From assembly GCA_036567785.1 (NCBI GenBank), contig DATCTV010000004.1:1-64000 (forward strand): a DNA stretch of 64,000 nt, in the 5' to 3' direction. A program made the translations under genes and the position numbers. This document shows, in pieces, positions 3,632 through 16,122 of the stretch. The notes beneath the pieces were generated by a model. It was not told the origin of the DNA, searched no databases, and saw only the letters and a program-made list of their open reading frames with translations. Position 1 is the stretch's first letter. The number at the start of each line of letters is the position of its first letter. The stretch is from Desulfomonilia bacterium (GTDB lineage: Bacteria > Desulfobacterota > Desulfomonilia > UBA1062).

Positions 3632-6103
3632 ATGGAATACAGCAGAATGAGAGAAGATGATCCCAGCTCGATACTGACAGAAAAGGTCGATCAGAAAATT
3701 ACCGGTCTGTTCGGAAGCATTAACGGCAGTTTATCAAAGGGCTGGTCTGTCATCGCCGTAGGAGGATACGGCAGAAAGGACATGTGCCCCTATTCGGATG
3801 TCGATATCCTTCTGCTTGCAGGTAAAAGTGGGATGAAAAAAGATGCCGACAGCCTGGTAAACGCTTTGATCTATCCGCTCTGGGACCTGGGGCTTAACGC
3901 AAGCTACAGTGTCCGTACAATAAAAGAAACGCTCGGTGACATGGAAAAGGATTTCTTTCTCAAGACCTCACTCCTGAACATGAGATTTGTCTGCGGGGAT
4001 CAGACCCTCTTCAGGGAACTTTCCTCATCAATTGCAAAGAAAACTTCAAAGAGAAAATGGAAAACCTCATTCATTGCCGACCTTATACTTCATGACAGGA
4101 AAAGACATGAGCTCTTCGGTGACGATGCATATATCCTGGAACCGGATATAAAAGACGGCCATGGAGGTCTTCGCGATTTCCACAGCATCCTGTGGATGGT
4201 GGGAACAGTCCTCGAAGCAGCCGGCATGGATACTCTCGTTGAAAAAAGGATCATTTCATCAAAGGATTTGAGCGACCTGCTCGATGCCGCCGGCTTTTTA
4301 CTGAAAACCAGATTTACCCTGCATGAAATTTCAGGAAGGAAACAGGATCATCTGGGTTTCGAATACCAGGAAAAACTTTCAAGAATCATGGGGCTTTCAT
4401 TTTCCGAAATAGAAACTCCTGTTGAAGCATTTATGAAAAGATTTCATCGAAGCGCTTCAACGATTAAAACACTTGGAAGAAACCTTACGTTTTCGATAAT
4501 GGATATGTTTTCCCTCATAAAAGACAGGTCTGACAAACCCCTCAGTTCCAATCTCACAATAAAATCCGGTATGGTTGCATTTTCAGAAGGCTTGCCCCTT
4601 CCACTCAAGCCCTCCATACTTATGGGGGCCTTTCTTGCATGTGCAAGGTCTGGTCTGGAACTCCATCCCTCGGCAAGAACGATTATCAGGAACAACCCGG
4701 ACTTTGCCGTAACCAGCAGGTCATTTCTCCAGACAAAAAGCATATTCCTCAAGATATTGAATTCCGATTACCCTCAGTCCGGCCTGATTCCTATGCTCGA
4801 GACGGGTGTCCTTGAGCTCTTCATTCCCGAATTCACGAGGATCCGTTCAAAGATCCAGTTTGATGCCTATCATGTCAACACCGTGGACATGCACAGCATA
4901 AATACGTTAGCAGAGATCAAGCATCTCGAACGTCATAAAAACCCGGCCTTTTCAAAAATCGAAGATACCGATATGCTCATGCTTGCTGCCTTGCTCCATG
5001 ACATTGGAAAGGGAAGCGGCGGCCGTCATGAGGCTACAGGAGCGGCCCTGGCATATGATATTGCATTGAGACTGGGATTCAAAACCGAATACGCTGAGAC
5101 GATTTCATTCCTTATCAGAAACCATCTGCTCCTTCCGCATACCGCAACCAGGCGCGACATATCCGATGAAAAAACCGTTTTTAAATTCGCCAGAGCGGCA
5201 GGTTCTGTAGAAAACCTGTGCATGCTTTATCTGCTCAGCATCGCCGATTCCATTGCAACCGGTCCTGCAGCCTGGAATGACTGGAAGGGTGCACTTTTCA
5301 ATGAACTCTACGTCAAGGCATTGTACTTTCTTGAAAAAGGGGAGCTTAAAAGCAGTGAAACCGTGCGCAGGCTGGATTCGGGATGGGAAGAGCTTCTAAG
5401 GATAGTTCCGGCTAAATATTCAGGAAGGCTGTGGGCGTTGCCCCAGCATTATCTCCTGCATTACGACACATCAGAAATAATAAGGCATCTGAAATTGTGT
5501 GAAGACATAACGAAAGGCAGCTCAATCAGGATTGAAGTGATTCACGAAGGAGGACGTGTCAGGCTTACGGTTGTCACAAAAGACAAACCCGGGCTCTTTG
5601 CCGAACTCTCCTGCATTATGGCATGCATGCACCTCGAAGTGCTTTCCGCCAAGGTCTTTACCTGGCACAACGGTATAGCTGTCGACACATTCGATGTAAT
5701 ACCCCCCTGGGAGGGTTATGACGACTGGGACAAATTTACCGGGCTTTTTATGAGTTTATCCACAGGACAAACAGATACCTTCACCGCAATATCACAAATA
5801 CCGTCATTGCTGCATTCTCCAAATAAACCGAAACTCGCAGCCGAGTCTCTTATAAGCATAGACAATCAGTCATCAGATTTCTTCTCCATAATCGAAATCA
5901 AGGCAGAACGTGCCAGGGACCTTCTTTTCCTGATATCTCAAACGATAAGCACACACAACCTGTCCATACATCGTGCATTCATAACAACAGATGCGGACGT
6001 TTCAGCGATCATCTTTTATGTCGTGCTTAAGACAGGAGAAAAAATCGAGGACAGGGAATTGCAGTCAAATCTTATTAAAGCAATCGGTGAAGCCCTGAGA
6101 TAA
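3632..6103 (+). CDS. glnD: [Protein-PII] uridylyltransferase / uridylyl-removing enzyme
   Basis: GlnD is the glutamine sensor that uridylylates PII proteins at low glutamine and removes UMP at high glutamine. The nucleotidyltransferase signature AVGGYGRKDMCPYSDVDILL lies in the first 70 residues with the G-G and D-x-D catalytic elements. A GlnD/PII linker region follows. The HD domain carries H-x-H-S-I-N-T and LLHDIGKG near residues 450-460. Two ACT domains close the protein; the first begins RLTVVTKDKPGLFAEL near 645. About 823 residues, within the family range. A TTG at 3614 extends the frame but lies inside the predicted -12 element, so ATG 3632 is preferred; ATG 3647 (M-R-E-D-D) is an equal alternative because 3632 would leave almost no leader. 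It faces glnN across a shared terminator. Confidence 0.9.
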   Translation: MEYSRMREDDPSSILTEKVDQKITGLFGSINGSLSKGWSVIAVGGYGRKDMCPYSDVDILLLAGKSGMKKDADSLVNALIYPLWDLGLNASYSVRTIKETLGDMEKDFFLKTSLLNMRFVCGDQTLFRELSSSIAKKTSKRKWKTSFIADLILHDRKRHELFGDDAYILEPDIKDGHGGLRDFHSILWMVGTVLEAAGMDTLVEKRIISSKDLSDLLDAAGFLLKTRFTLHEISGRKQDHLGFEYQEKLSRIMGLSFSEIETPVEAFMKRFHRSASTIKTLGRNLTFSIMDMFSLIKDRSDKPLSSNLTIKSGMVAFSEGLPLPLKPSILMGAFLACARSGLELHPSARTIIRNNPDFAVTSRSFLQTKSIFLKILNSDYPQSGLIPMLETGVLELFIPEFTRIRSKIQFDAYHVNTVDMHSINTLAEIKHLERHKNPAFSKIEDTDMLMLAALLHDIGKGSGGRHEATGAALAYDIALRLGFKTEYAETISFLIRNHLLLPHTATRRDISDEKTVFKFARAAGSVENLCMLYLLSIADSIATGPAAWNDWKGALFNELYVKALYFLEKGELKSSETVRRLDSGWEELLRIVPAKYSGRLWALPQHYLLHYDTSEIIRHLKLCEDITKGSSIRIEVIHEGGRVRLTVVTKDKPGLFAELSCIMACMHLEVLSAKVFTWHNGIAVDTFDVIPPWEGYDDWDKFTGLFMSLSTGQTDTFTAISQIPSLLHSPNKPKLAAESLISIDNQSSDFFSIIEIKAERARDLLFLISQTISTHNLSIHRAFITTDADVSAIIFYVVLKTGEKIEDRELQSNLIKAIGEALR

Positions 6104-11909: not shown

Positions 11910-12389
11910 TCATCCTCCATCAGAGGCATTAATCTCATCAAGAAGGGATAAAAGCTCATTGTTGTCTGGGATGTCAGACATCGAATGGCCGTAGTGGACA
12001 AAACGGACCATCCCTTTCTTGTCGATTATCACCTGTGCAGGCATGCGGCCAAGCCTGAAGATTTTTACTTCCTGGCCGTATGTCTTTAATACCGTATGTT
12101 CAGGGTCCGGCAACCCGATAAAGGGGAGCGATTCCTTTTCCCAGTATCTTCTGAATGCCTGTGCATTTTCAGGTCCGGCGACAATTATTACCGCGTCCTT
12201 TCCTGTGAATTTGTCAAAATCCTGGCGCAACTGCGCCATGTGCCTCTGGCAGAATGGTCAGAAGAAGCCCCGGTTGAAGACAAGTATTACATTATTCCTG
12301 TTCCTATAATCTGATAGCTTTACCGCCTGGCCGGCGAAGTCGTTAAGCGCAATCTCGGGGGCATCCTGGAAAAGACTTATTTTACTCAT
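11910..12389 (-). CDS. Selenocysteine-containing peroxiredoxin-like protein (AhpC/TSA fold, UxxC)
   Basis: Read from ATG 12389 (AGGAGG eight bases upstream), the frame is open for 159 codons except for one TGA at 12260-12258. Around it the protein reads VILVFNRGFF-U-PFCQRHM, exactly where peroxiredoxin-like thioredoxin-fold proteins have W-C-P-x-C. The TGA therefore most likely encodes selenocysteine (residue 44) in a U-P-F-C redox motif. The part after the TGA continues as a normal redoxin: IIVAGPENAQAFRRYW, LPFIGLPDPEHTVLKTYG and cis-proline RMPAQVIIDKKG. A hairpin follows the TGA directly. If the TGA were a stop, only the first 43 residues would be made and the conserved downstream region would be unexplained. 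It probably reduces peroxides or thiols. It is close to other redox genes, but no sel genes are in the window. Confidence 0.8.
12236..12257 (-). promoter_or_regulatory. SECIS-like hairpin immediately after the selenocysteine TGA
   Basis: The 22 bases after the TGA read, on the minus strand, CCAT-TC-TGCC-AGA-GGCA-C-ATGG. They fold into two 4-bp helices separated by a small TC/C internal loop and capped by a three-base loop containing G. This resembles bacterial SECIS elements (lower stem, bulged U, small apical loop with G), though the loop is closer to the TGA than in E. coli fdhF. A second hairpin TGGCGC/GCGCCA follows. SelB binding is not proven. Confidence 0.5.
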
Positions 12390-12501
12390 CGGTACACCTC
12401 CTCTTTTAAGTAACTGCTCTTTATCTTATTTCGTCATCCGGCCGATAAATCTGTAGAATATATTGAACTCTCTAAAACATAAAAAAAGGAAACTGTTTTA
12501 A

Positions 12502-12987
12502 ATGCCAAAGGAACACTTTTCAACAACGTCGGCCATACGGGTCATGAAGGAAAAGGGAATATCCTTTACCCTTCATCAGTACAGATATGAAGAGCACGGC
12601 GGTACGGAAGTTTCCGCTCGAGAGCTCGGTGTCGATGAACACATTATAATCAAGACGCTCGTCATGGAGGATGACAGAAAAGTGCCTTTTATCATACTCA
12701 TGCACGGCGACAGGCATGTCTCTACAAAAAACATGGCAAGATATCTCGGTGCAAAATCGGTTCAGCCGTGCGATCCGAATATTGCCGAACGACATACCGG
12801 TTACAGGGTGGGAGGCACATCCCCCTTCGGTACAAGAAAACACCTGAAAATATTTATAGAGTCCACCATCCTCGACCTGCCCAGAATACTTATAAATGCA
12901 GGACAAAGAGGACTTCTGGCTGAGATGTCGCCTCTGGATATGGCAAAGGCTTTGAGCACGGAGGCCGTTAATGTTGCGATTGACTGA
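12502..12987 (+). CDS. ybaK: YbaK/EbsC-type aminoacyl-tRNA deacylase
   Basis: This 161-residue protein matches the YbaK/EbsC family, which hydrolyses misacylated tRNA such as Cys-tRNA(Pro), a translation quality-control step. The family signatures seen are the opening TSAIRVMKEKGISFTLHQY, the catalytic lysine region I-I-K-T-L-V near residue 52, and GYRVGGTSPFGTRKHLKIF near residue 95. It is a single-domain, stand-alone protein. AAGGAAA lies ahead of the ATG. It is divergent from the selenoprotein and convergent with the flavoprotein. The substrate (Cys, Ala or other) cannot be set from sequence alone. Confidence 0.85.
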   Translation: MPKEHFSTTSAIRVMKEKGISFTLHQYRYEEHGGTEVSARELGVDEHIIIKTLVMEDDRKVPFIILMHGDRHVSTKNMARYLGAKSVQPCDPNIAERHTGYRVGGTSPFGTRKHLKIFIESTILDLPRILINAGQRGLLAEMSPLDMAKALSTEAVNVAID

Positions 12988-13024: not shown

Positions 13025-13597
13025 TTAGCCTGCAAGATTAATTCCTGCAGTGTATGCCTTCTTCATAAGATCTGTATTCCCTTCTGCATATTTCATATCT
13101 CTTGCACCTGAGGCTACTATTCGTTCCTTAATATCAAAGCCTATAAAGCTTAGTATGCCTTCGGTCAGATTGAAGCAGTCTTTGAATATGGCGGGATCAG
13201 GCTGCCCCTGGGCATATACGGTCACGGTTTTCTTTTTGTTTAATTTGGTTTTAAAGTTGCCTCCCAGTTCAGAAGCCGGGTACAGGAAAGCAAATAACCG
13301 GTCAATTAAAGCCTTTGTCTGGCTCGTAACCTGGGCCATATAGACAGGGCTGCCGATCACTATCGCATCGGCATTGTAAATATCATCATAGATTCCTGTC
13401 ATATCGTCTTGCTGAACGCATTTCCCTTCTTTTGTCTGACATTTCAAGCATCCCTGGCAGCCCCTTATATTGAGCTGGTTTATGTTATATATAATCGTTT
13501 CAGCACCGCTGTCATGTGCACCTCTGAGAACTTCTCCCACGAGTGAAGCGGTATTTCCAGATATCCTCGGACTTCCTATAAAACCAGCAACCTTCAT
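13025..13597 (-). CDS. NADPH-dependent FMN reductase / iron-sulfur flavoprotein family
   Basis: The 190-residue protein has a flavodoxin-like fold: the FMN phosphate loop GSPRISGNTASL near residues 8-19 and the second FMN-contact segment IVIGSPVYMAQVTSQTKALI near 88-107. A cysteine set C-Q-G-C-L-K-C-Q-T-K-E-G-K-C at about 48-61 is the compact 4Fe-4S motif of iron-sulfur flavoproteins (Isf) from anaerobes. Isf proteins move electrons between ferredoxin and small acceptors such as oxygen or peroxide. AGGAGG lies seven bases upstream of ATG. The gene is alone between ybaK (convergent) and the polyferredoxin gene. Electron partners are unknown. Confidence 0.8.
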   Translation of the reverse strand: MKVAGFIGSPRISGNTASLVGEVLRGAHDSGAETIIYNINQLNIRGCQGCLKCQTKEGKCVQQDDMTGIYDDIYNADAIVIGSPVYMAQVTSQTKALIDRLFAFLYPASELGGNFKTKLNKKKTVTVYAQGQPDPAIFKDCFNLTEGILSFIGFDIKERIVASGARDMKYAEGNTDLMKKAYTAGINLAG

Positions 13598-13675
13598 CTT
13601 TGATCCTCCTGTATGGTTTTCTGCTTAATTTTATACAATATTCAGGAACCCCTGTTGAAGCTTGACAAGATCATC

Positions 13676-15223
13676 CTATAAGAATCCCTGCAACCCTTCT
13701 TCCCTGCTTTCTCCCGTATTTGTAACAAAAATAGCAGGCCTGTCGTCAAGCGGACAGTTCTTTTCGCATTTGCCGCATCCGATACATCTTCGGGTATCGA
13801 CATGAGGAAGAAGAAGACTGACTTCCGCACCGCTCATGTCCTTGATTTTTGTTTCCTCGAGCCATATCGCCTTTTGAGGCACGATGCACATCTCTTCACA
13901 GACAATGCAGGGTTCCCCATCGGCCCAGGGCAGGCATCGCGAACGGTCAATCATTGCCTCTCCGATCTTGATGTTCATAAGTTTATCTTTCTTCATCTCA
14001 AGAATCGCCCCTGTAGGACACACCTGACCGCAAAGTGTGCAATACTCGCAAGAACCGATTAATGGAACCAGTCTGGGAGTCCAGATGCCTTGAAATCCGG
14101 CTTCGAGCAGTAATGGCTGAAGTCCGCCCGTAGGGCATACTTTCAGACACGCCCCGCATTTTATGCAGCGATTAGAAAAAACCGATTCTTTAACACTGCC
14201 CGGAGGCCTTATAAGTGACGGATCTTTAACGGCAGGCCTTTGTCTGAAAAACGGCACGGTGAAAATCCCTGCAACAAGGGAAAAAATAACCCCCCGGCGT
14301 TTGACATCCAGAGGTATATTTTTCATTATTATGCCATATTGCACAGCCTCATTCGGGCACGGATCGTCACAGTCCATGCACACCAGACACTCGGTCTTCA
14401 TCCGGGCTCTTCCATTATCGATTACGGCACCGCCCTGGCATGGTTTTGAACAGGCGCCGCAAGATGCGCATCCTTCGGAGACCTTGATGCCAAAAGGTGC
14501 AAATCTTGACAGCAGTCCGAGTAAAGCCCCGAGAGGACATAAGTATCTGCACCAGAACCTTTTCTCGACAATATTCAACAGGAGTACGATAAAAAATATC
14601 CCTCCAATGAGCATGGATTGAGAGAAATGAACTTCGTTGAACGGCAGGACGGTTCCCCTGAGAGATGAATAAATCCTTCCGGAAATATCAGCCGCACCTT
14701 CCGGTGCATATTTCTCAATGAGGTCAAGAATAGACATGAATAATGAACTGATAAAGGGATAGACATTTACTGTAATCGATCTTGCAAAGAGCGATAACGG
14801 GTCAAGAATCCCTGCCAGCTGAATGCCTGAAAATGCTGCTGCAATAATAAAGAACAATATGTAGTATTTTAGCCTGTAGAGTTTTCCCGGCCCGGTCTTT
14901 TTTGACCTGCTGAATGTTGAAATGGCATTATTCAATGTCCCTAGCGGACAGATCCAGCCGCAAAAAACACGCCCGAAAACAAGAGTCAGTACGATTGTTG
15001 CGAGTGACAGGAAGAGAGCTGCGGGGACTGCATGCGAGGAGATCATTGTTGTAATCAGCAAAAGCGGGTCGAAATCGAGGAACAGCCTTATGGGATAACC
15101 CATGGACTCGCTGCCCTTGTTCTCGGTCTGAACGAAAAGGAACAGGAAAACCAACAGGAAAGCGGCCTGGCATATCTTCCTAAGCCGCTTTGTTGTTATC
15201 AGAGAGTTCCAGGGTTTCATCAT
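13676..15223 (-). CDS. NapH/MauN-type membrane polyferredoxin
   Basis: The 515-residue protein is a membrane-bound electron carrier. The N-terminal half has about five to six membrane segments (near 15-30, 60-85, 120-145, 150-165, 190-215), with the NapH-type paired motifs GRVFCGWICPLG and RFWCRYLCPLGALLG. The C-terminal half carries several ferredoxin-like cysteine clusters, among them CASCGACSKPC, CLVCMDCDDPCP, CIKCGACLKVCP, CTLCGQVCP and CIGCGKCEKNCP. Some cluster spacings are irregular. It begins two bases after the DUF362 stop codon, so the two are translationally coupled. It probably passes electrons between a quinol or cytoplasmic donor and the exported DUF362 partner; that role is inference. 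Confidence 0.8.
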   Translation of the reverse strand: MMKPWNSLITTKRLRKICQAAFLLVFLFLFVQTENKGSESMGYPIRLFLDFDPLLLITTMISSHAVPAALFLSLATIVLTLVFGRVFCGWICPLGTLNNAISTFSRSKKTGPGKLYRLKYYILFFIIAAAFSGIQLAGILDPLSLFARSITVNVYPFISSLFMSILDLIEKYAPEGAADISGRIYSSLRGTVLPFNEVHFSQSMLIGGIFFIVLLLNIVEKRFWCRYLCPLGALLGLLSRFAPFGIKVSEGCASCGACSKPCQGGAVIDNGRARMKTECLVCMDCDDPCPNEAVQYGIIMKNIPLDVKRRGVIFSLVAGIFTVPFFRQRPAVKDPSLIRPPGSVKESVFSNRCIKCGACLKVCPTGGLQPLLLEAGFQGIWTPRLVPLIGSCEYCTLCGQVCPTGAILEMKKDKLMNIKIGEAMIDRSRCLPWADGEPCIVCEEMCIVPQKAIWLEETKIKDMSGAEVSLLLPHVDTRRCIGCGKCEKNCPLDDRPAIFVTNTGESREEGLQGFL

Positions 15224-15225
15224 CT

Positions 15226-16122
15226 CTACACTTGCATCTTTTTAATATTAAGGTTTTCAATATCCATTCTTCCGATACGTACGGCATCGCCAAGCTTCAC
15301 ATAATCGAGATCGGCCCCTTTCATACCGAAGAGAGTTGCGCCATAAGAATCAATCGCCACCATATCCGTACCTGCAACAACAGTATCGAGTTTCCTGACA
15401 TCCTTGAGATTGCCTCCTGTCGGACCGTTTGCCGTAAGTATCCGGACTGCATCAAGGATTGTAAGCGCCGGCCTCATGAACCTGGCCATATCCACAAGAT
15501 TCTCACCCATTTTTCTGTGAAGCTTCCCTCTGCGGCCTCCCATGACGCCCATCATGTTTTTCATTGAGAGAGTAAGTCTCGATATCCCGTGGTCTTTTGC
15601 AACAGGCACATTTATAATTTTGTCAGCATCAAGAGCATCCTTGTATATAGGCCATTTTTTAAGTGCAGTTCCTTTTATATCCACTTCGATATATTTCCTG
15701 TCCTCCATGTAAATGACTTCTGCACCGCATCTCTTTGCTTCGGCGGCTATGCCGCTTGCCGTATAACAATTTATGGCGTTATCGCATGTATTATCAAAAA
15801 CCTTGACTCTGCCGGCACCTGCATCGAGACACATTCTTACAACGGCCCCTACAACAAACGGATTCGTATTTGCAGCAAATTCAGGGGCCCTGTTCCATCC
15901 TATGTTAGGCTTTACCACAACAATATCCCCCCTGGATACGAACCGCTTCATCCCTCCCAGGGCATTGACTGCCGATAGTGTAATTCTTGCAGGATCATGC
16001 CCTTTTACAACTGCGATGTCAGGATACTGGGACTGAGCTGCAGCTAGATTTCTCAATCCCGGGTAAATTAATGTTGCTGCACCTGATATCACTGCGGTCT
16101 TGATAAATTCCCTTCTGTTCAT
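15226..16122 (-). CDS. DUF362-domain protein with Tat-type signal
   Basis: This 298-residue protein starts N-R-R-E-F-I-K-T-A followed by a hydrophobic stretch and A-A-A, a twin-arginine export signal. The rest is the DUF362 domain, recognised by GDIVVVKPNIGWNRAP, NPFVVGAVVRMCLDAGAGRVKVFDN-type Rossmann strands, INVPVAKDHGISRLTLSMKN and the VAIDSYGATLFGM region. DUF362 proteins commonly travel with 4Fe-4S proteins, but their chemistry is not established. GGAGG precedes the ATG by four bases. It is the first gene of a two-gene unit with the NapH-like polyferredoxin; the Tat signal suggests that it folds, perhaps with a cofactor, before export. Confidence 0.85.
   Translation of the reverse strand: MNRREFIKTAVISGAATLIYPGLRNLAAAQSQYPDIAVVKGHDPARITLSAVNALGGMKRFVSRGDIVVVKPNIGWNRAPEFAANTNPFVVGAVVRMCLDAGAGRVKVFDNTCDNAINCYTASGIAAEAKRCGAEVIYMEDRKYIEVDIKGTALKKWPIYKDALDADKIINVPVAKDHGISRLTLSMKNMMGVMGGRRGKLHRKMGENLVDMARFMRPALTILDAVRILTANGPTGGNLKDVRKLDTVVAGTDMVAIDSYGATLFGMKGADLDYVKLGDAVRIGRMDIENLNIKKMQV

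Follow-up and report, generated by a model that had tools for sequence, protein, structure and literature searches.

A predicted UxxC peroxiredoxin-like selenoprotein gene in a Desulfomonilia genome and its TGA-bearing relatives

The window analyzed here, a stretch of 64,000 nucleotides from Desulfomonilia bacterium contig DATCTV010000004.1 (assembly GCA_036567785.1), carries on its reverse strand a single frame of 159 codons (12389–11910) with one internal TGA only, at codon 44 (12260–12258; Table 1). The reverse strand reads AAAAGAGGAGGTGTACCG-ATG, a strong Shine-Dalgarno arrangement, and AGAGGAGGTG precedes the ATG at 12389, from which a protein of 159 residues would be translated. The frame, its lone TGA and the hairpin that follows it lie exactly where a sequence-only reading of this DNA had put them. 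That reading had also anticipated that standard calling would yield a 109-residue product, and Table 11 ORF calling indeed returns just a 109-aa ORF (11910–12239). The annotation is corrected here accordingly, as gene callers would lose the first third of the protein together with its active site. The read-through protein matches the AhpC-TSA family (Pfam PF00578) with 75.2 bits (cutoff 26) over residues 8–130, while the truncated ORF scores 31.1 bits only. The stretches before and after the TGA belong, in a single frame, to the same Pfam family, and the arrangement recurs in other genomes; a TGA-containing frame of this kind is far beyond what chance would produce.

Table 1. Coordinates of the features assigned to the predicted selenoprotein gene in the window.
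Feature	Position	Strand	Description
Complete selenoprotein gene (predicted)	11910..12389	-	159 codons plus stop TGA (11912-11910); peroxiredoxin-like/AhpC-TSA-fold protein with GFFUPFC
In-frame TGA, codon 44, predicted to be read as selenocysteine	12258..12260	-	motif G-F-F-U-P-F-C
Codon 47 (TGC)	12249..12251	-	Cys of the UxxC motif, probable resolving residue
SECIS-like hairpin	12223..12238	-	UGGCGC-AGUU-GCGCCA, 6 bp; loop AGUU at 12232-12229; 25 nt past the TGA
Shine-Dalgarno region	12390..12407	-	AAAAGAGGAGGTGTACCG, ahead of the ATG

The genome that harbors this gene encodes the machinery for inserting selenocysteine (Sec). A search for selA, selB, selC and selD, proposed in the sequence-only reading, recovered all four from the 3.96-Mb assembly to which the window gene itself belongs: selA (8.9e-132), selB (2.6e-107), selD (4.1e-113) and selC, a tRNA-Sec with anticodon TCA. 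The selD gene carries an in-frame TGA of its own, so that the genome holds at least one further predicted selenoprotein gene; this SelD has the motif GAGUACKIG (L018 1447–2510 (+), G000:C27:68217–69131). The genome also encodes another redoxin (L024 1447–1974 (-), G000:C52 about 4552–4944) with an in-frame TGA, which lies within TSGUT, an instance of the TxxU motif found in peroxiredoxins that contain Sec. Its Sec would occupy the peroxidatic position, unlike that of the window protein, which stands at the first position of the motif. Of the genomes carrying a relative of the window gene, all but one gave a SelA match; from the exception, G049, whose completeness is 82%, only a sub-threshold fragment was obtained. 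This co-occurrence is weak evidence, since SelA is also present in most non-carrier genomes of the window's class.

We searched 395 genomes of a phylum sample for relatives at a threshold of E<=1e-20. Twenty-one genomes match, the window's own included, with the others at 37–71% protein identity, and in each of the 21 one copy or more contains an in-frame TGA. The in-frame TGA is thus kept in 20 other genomes from about eleven families of the sample, as well as in a Desulfobulbus MAG, the only close relative returned when contigs were scanned with patterns that had C in place of U. A genome draw centered on this MAG gave an identical set, so that the phylum sampled is that of the MAG, Thermodesulfobacteriota. 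Our alignment comprises 26 members: the window protein, 21 other TGA-bearing relatives (among them the Desulfobulbus copy, L025) and four Cys paralogues. A frameshifted TGA copy, L040, was left out of it; in this copy (L040/L049, G130:C63:14629–15083) the frame appears to shift after about codon 63, as would be expected of a pseudogene or of a misassembled sequence. In all 21 other aligned TGA-bearing relatives the TGA falls on codon 44 of the window gene. The Sec form therefore accounts for 22 of the 26 members, and the sequence-only reading's question of whether Cys aligns to the TGA is answered by the four paralogues, all from genome G085, which have TGC in that column. Arg40, Gly41, Phe42 and residue 44 are invariant (26/26).

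A hairpin had been reported directly after the TGA, and one is present at 12238–12223. The published model of bacterial SECIS elements calls for an apical loop of 3–9 nt, a stem of 4–16 bp, a G in one of the first two loop positions, a distance of 16–37 nt from the UGA and an MFE <= -7.5 (PMC13188914). With its 6-bp stem, 4-nt loop with G in second place, 25-nt spacing between TGA and loop and MFE of -10.8 kcal/mol, the window hairpin fits this model, which settles favorably the bacterial SECIS check that had been suggested for this region. Most close relatives retain a hairpin of the window type, and inspection of the sequences of distant groups revealed different stems at nearly the same place (CAUCUG-GGU-CAGAUG in L044 and CUGGAG-GUG-CUCCAG in L043). 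The 27-nt region folds at <= -7.5 kcal/mol in 17 of the 23 TGA members and in none of the four Cys paralogues (-3.0 to -5.3 kcal/mol); the Sec form L048 also fails to reach this value. Greater stability than synonymous shuffles (p<0.05) was seen for 15 of the 23 TGA members and not for the other 8. An Rfam scan of the window reported two tRNAs only and no SECIS-type family.

Codon usage provides a further line of evidence. Leu54 is encoded by TTG in 14/14 relatives, although TTG makes up only ~12% of Leu codons, and Ala52 by GCG in 12/12. The mean share of the top codon is 0.84 in codons 50–57 versus 0.59 elsewhere (permutation p 0.002, an optimistic value because the alignment rows are related). 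Judged from these counts, the hairpin codons are conserved beyond the need of the protein. The 46-nt UGA region of the window is no outlier against dinucleotide shuffles (z -1.15), and hence the case for a SECIS is built on where the hairpin lies, on its fit to the published model and on the conserved codons.

Taken as a reading of sequence, decoding of the TGA at codon 44 as Sec is strongly supported, and three other accounts of this codon can be weighed against it. A sequencing or assembly error that hides a true TGC or TGT would suit the Cys homologues seen in the codon-44 column; yet the same codon is TGA in independent genomes of many families, mostly with hairpins behind it. An assembly error, which the sequence-only reading had named as a way in which its proposal could fail, is excluded by the identical TGA in the 21 other aligned homologues, and its probability is negligible. 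It is very improbable, too, that the gene is a pseudogene, or that the TGA is a genuine stop and translation begins anew at the internal Met51 to give a 109-aa protein without an active site. Gene callers would report precisely that ORF, but relatives conserve the protein sequence before and after the TGA alike, including the invariant residues 40–42 and 44, and the strong Shine-Dalgarno sequence precedes the first ATG. Code reassignment or suppression could also let UGA specify another residue, such as Trp or Gly, and codes of this kind exist in some bacteria. Here, however, the terminal stop of the window gene is itself TGA, the genome possesses the full Sec machinery, and homologues place Cys, neither Trp nor Gly, in the column, which leaves this account next to no probability. 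Sec thus remains the preferred reading, and we regard the window gene, on the comparative evidence, as a real selenoprotein gene of an already known selenoprotein type.

To place the Sec residue structurally, we examined an AlphaFold2 model built from the 26-row alignment (pLDDT 90.1, pTM 0.87). The predicted fold is of the peroxiredoxin/TlpA type, and its best PDB matches are the Bcp1/Bcp4 and AhpE peroxiredoxins (Z 23–24 over about 150 residues). Residue 44 lies immediately ahead of the active-site helix (residues 45–56) in the model. In folds of this type the nucleophile usually sits just N-terminal to that helix.

Which of the two motif residues coincides with a catalytic Cys depends on the template chosen. 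In the alignment with Bcp1 and AhpE, U44 shares a column with the TxxC Thr, and Cys47 with the peroxidatic Cys; when aligned with the genome's own ResA-like protein, U44 falls on the first Cys of CPYC. The earlier claim that the TGA coincides exactly with a redoxin's catalytic cysteine consequently stands for thioredoxin/ResA-type proteins and not for canonical peroxiredoxins, whose TxxC active site is absent from the window protein (RGFFUPFC). The first alignment, together with an overall predicted fold closest to peroxiredoxins, could favor a selenoprotein that acts as a true peroxiredoxin, with Cys47 peroxidatic and U44 accessory. We consider this unlikely: Cys47 is replaced by Ala, Thr or Ser in other, distant members while U44/C44 is invariant, and the CPYC alignment points the same way. 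Because position 44 never varies and Cys47 is replaceable, the attack is most likely made by U44, with Cys47 serving for resolution, and Sec is probably the essential nucleophile.

We are highly confident that the locus encodes a peroxiredoxin-like Sec oxidoreductase whose UGA is decoded via SelB, Sec-tRNA(Sec) and a SECIS, and from this we infer the following scheme of insertion and catalysis. The product would be a peroxiredoxin-like thiol/selenol oxidoreductase of 159 aa that is probably located in the cytosol. SelB and Sec-tRNA(Sec) would insert Sec at the UGA of codon 44, with the adjacent downstream hairpin acting as the SECIS. From its place at the N-terminal end of the active-site helix, the selenolate may then attack an oxidized substrate, either a hydroperoxide or a disulfide. 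Cys47 would subsequently resolve the selenenylsulfide, which a thioredoxin-type system would presumably reduce.

The motif itself varies across the subfamily. UxxC is confined to the window gene and most of its close relatives, and other members have UPYT, UPFA, UPYA or UKQS. In the tree, one Cys paralogue of G085, L051 (CKQS), pairs as sister with the Sec form L048 (UKQS) from a congener (support 98/96), indicating that Sec and Cys were exchanged within one genus. This pair offers a natural comparison of Sec and Cys on one scaffold. In addition to its four Cys paralogues (L047, L050, L051 and L052), G085 has one Sec copy, and some of these proteins bear C-terminal extensions. As dS is saturated among the relatives, no dN/dS ratio is given.

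Among the 42 genomes of the window's class, only two others have a relative, and a distant one (42–45%), and the closest copies (65–71%) occur in another family (f32). This distribution suggests horizontal transfer or repeated loss, although the tree does not resolve the placement of the window copy. A conserved gene neighborhood was sought in 18 related loci and none was found beyond congeners, so that the surrounding genes do not hint at a substrate. In the window, genes at 12502–12987 (+) and 13025–16122 (-) encode an aminoacyl-tRNA editing domain protein, a flavodoxin-like FMN reductase, a NapH/NapG-like polyferredoxin and a DUF362 protein; those on the minus strand possibly form an electron-transfer cluster, one not common to the relatives. 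More tentatively, and with less than even confidence, the relatives may constitute a Thermodesulfobacteriota subfamily, uncurated and dominated by Sec, in which Sec rather than Cys is the usual state, Cys forms are nested and some members keep Sec as the only motif residue. If Sec were ancestral, the Cys forms would have given up Sec for Cys, contrary to the common Cys-to-Sec trend, and this would have been accompanied by gene transfer between families.

In curated collections, the closest model to the window protein is the SelL-related redox protein of NCBIfam (NF040769), which all 26 members match. The window protein, however, reaches 74.1 bits against a cutoff of 120 bits and aligns over residues 9–105 only. 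No NCBIfam model scores it above its own cutoff, and the subfamily thus looks uncurated there, as the sequence-only reading had supposed. Searching the literature for a bacterial family named as SelL-related added nothing. What the present analysis adds is a conserved, apparently uncurated subfamily of selenoproteins.

The broader type is familiar, again in agreement with that reading. Descriptions of peroxiredoxin-like selenoproteins with UxxC replacing TxxU go back to the mid-2000s (PMC1088965, PMC1794560, PMC2398784); such proteins were reported from anaerobic Deltaproteobacteria (now Thermodesulfobacteriota). A 2026 review has the entry “Prx-like thiol:disulfide oxidoreductase, PF00578, UxxC/UxxU.” The window gene is assigned to the UxxC type (listed sequence WP_010940744.1) by its described features rather than by sequence alignment. 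It shares with these proteins the PF00578 fold (the domain is found in 26/26 aligned members), a predicted bacterial SECIS after the UGA, and UxxC, here GFFUPFC, in place of the peroxiredoxin TxxU/TxxC (PMC1088965, PMC1794560, PMC2398784, PMC13188914); distant members of its subfamily differ in having no second Cys. The peroxiredoxin-like family selenoprotein cd02970 (UxxS) is also listed as Sec-containing (PMC13188914), and we compare it through that listing alone. Peroxiredoxin Q/Bcp and AhpE (3drn, 3hjp, 1xvw) have the same fold as that predicted for the window protein, but carry TxxC where the window protein has UxxC, with Sec at the position of Thr.
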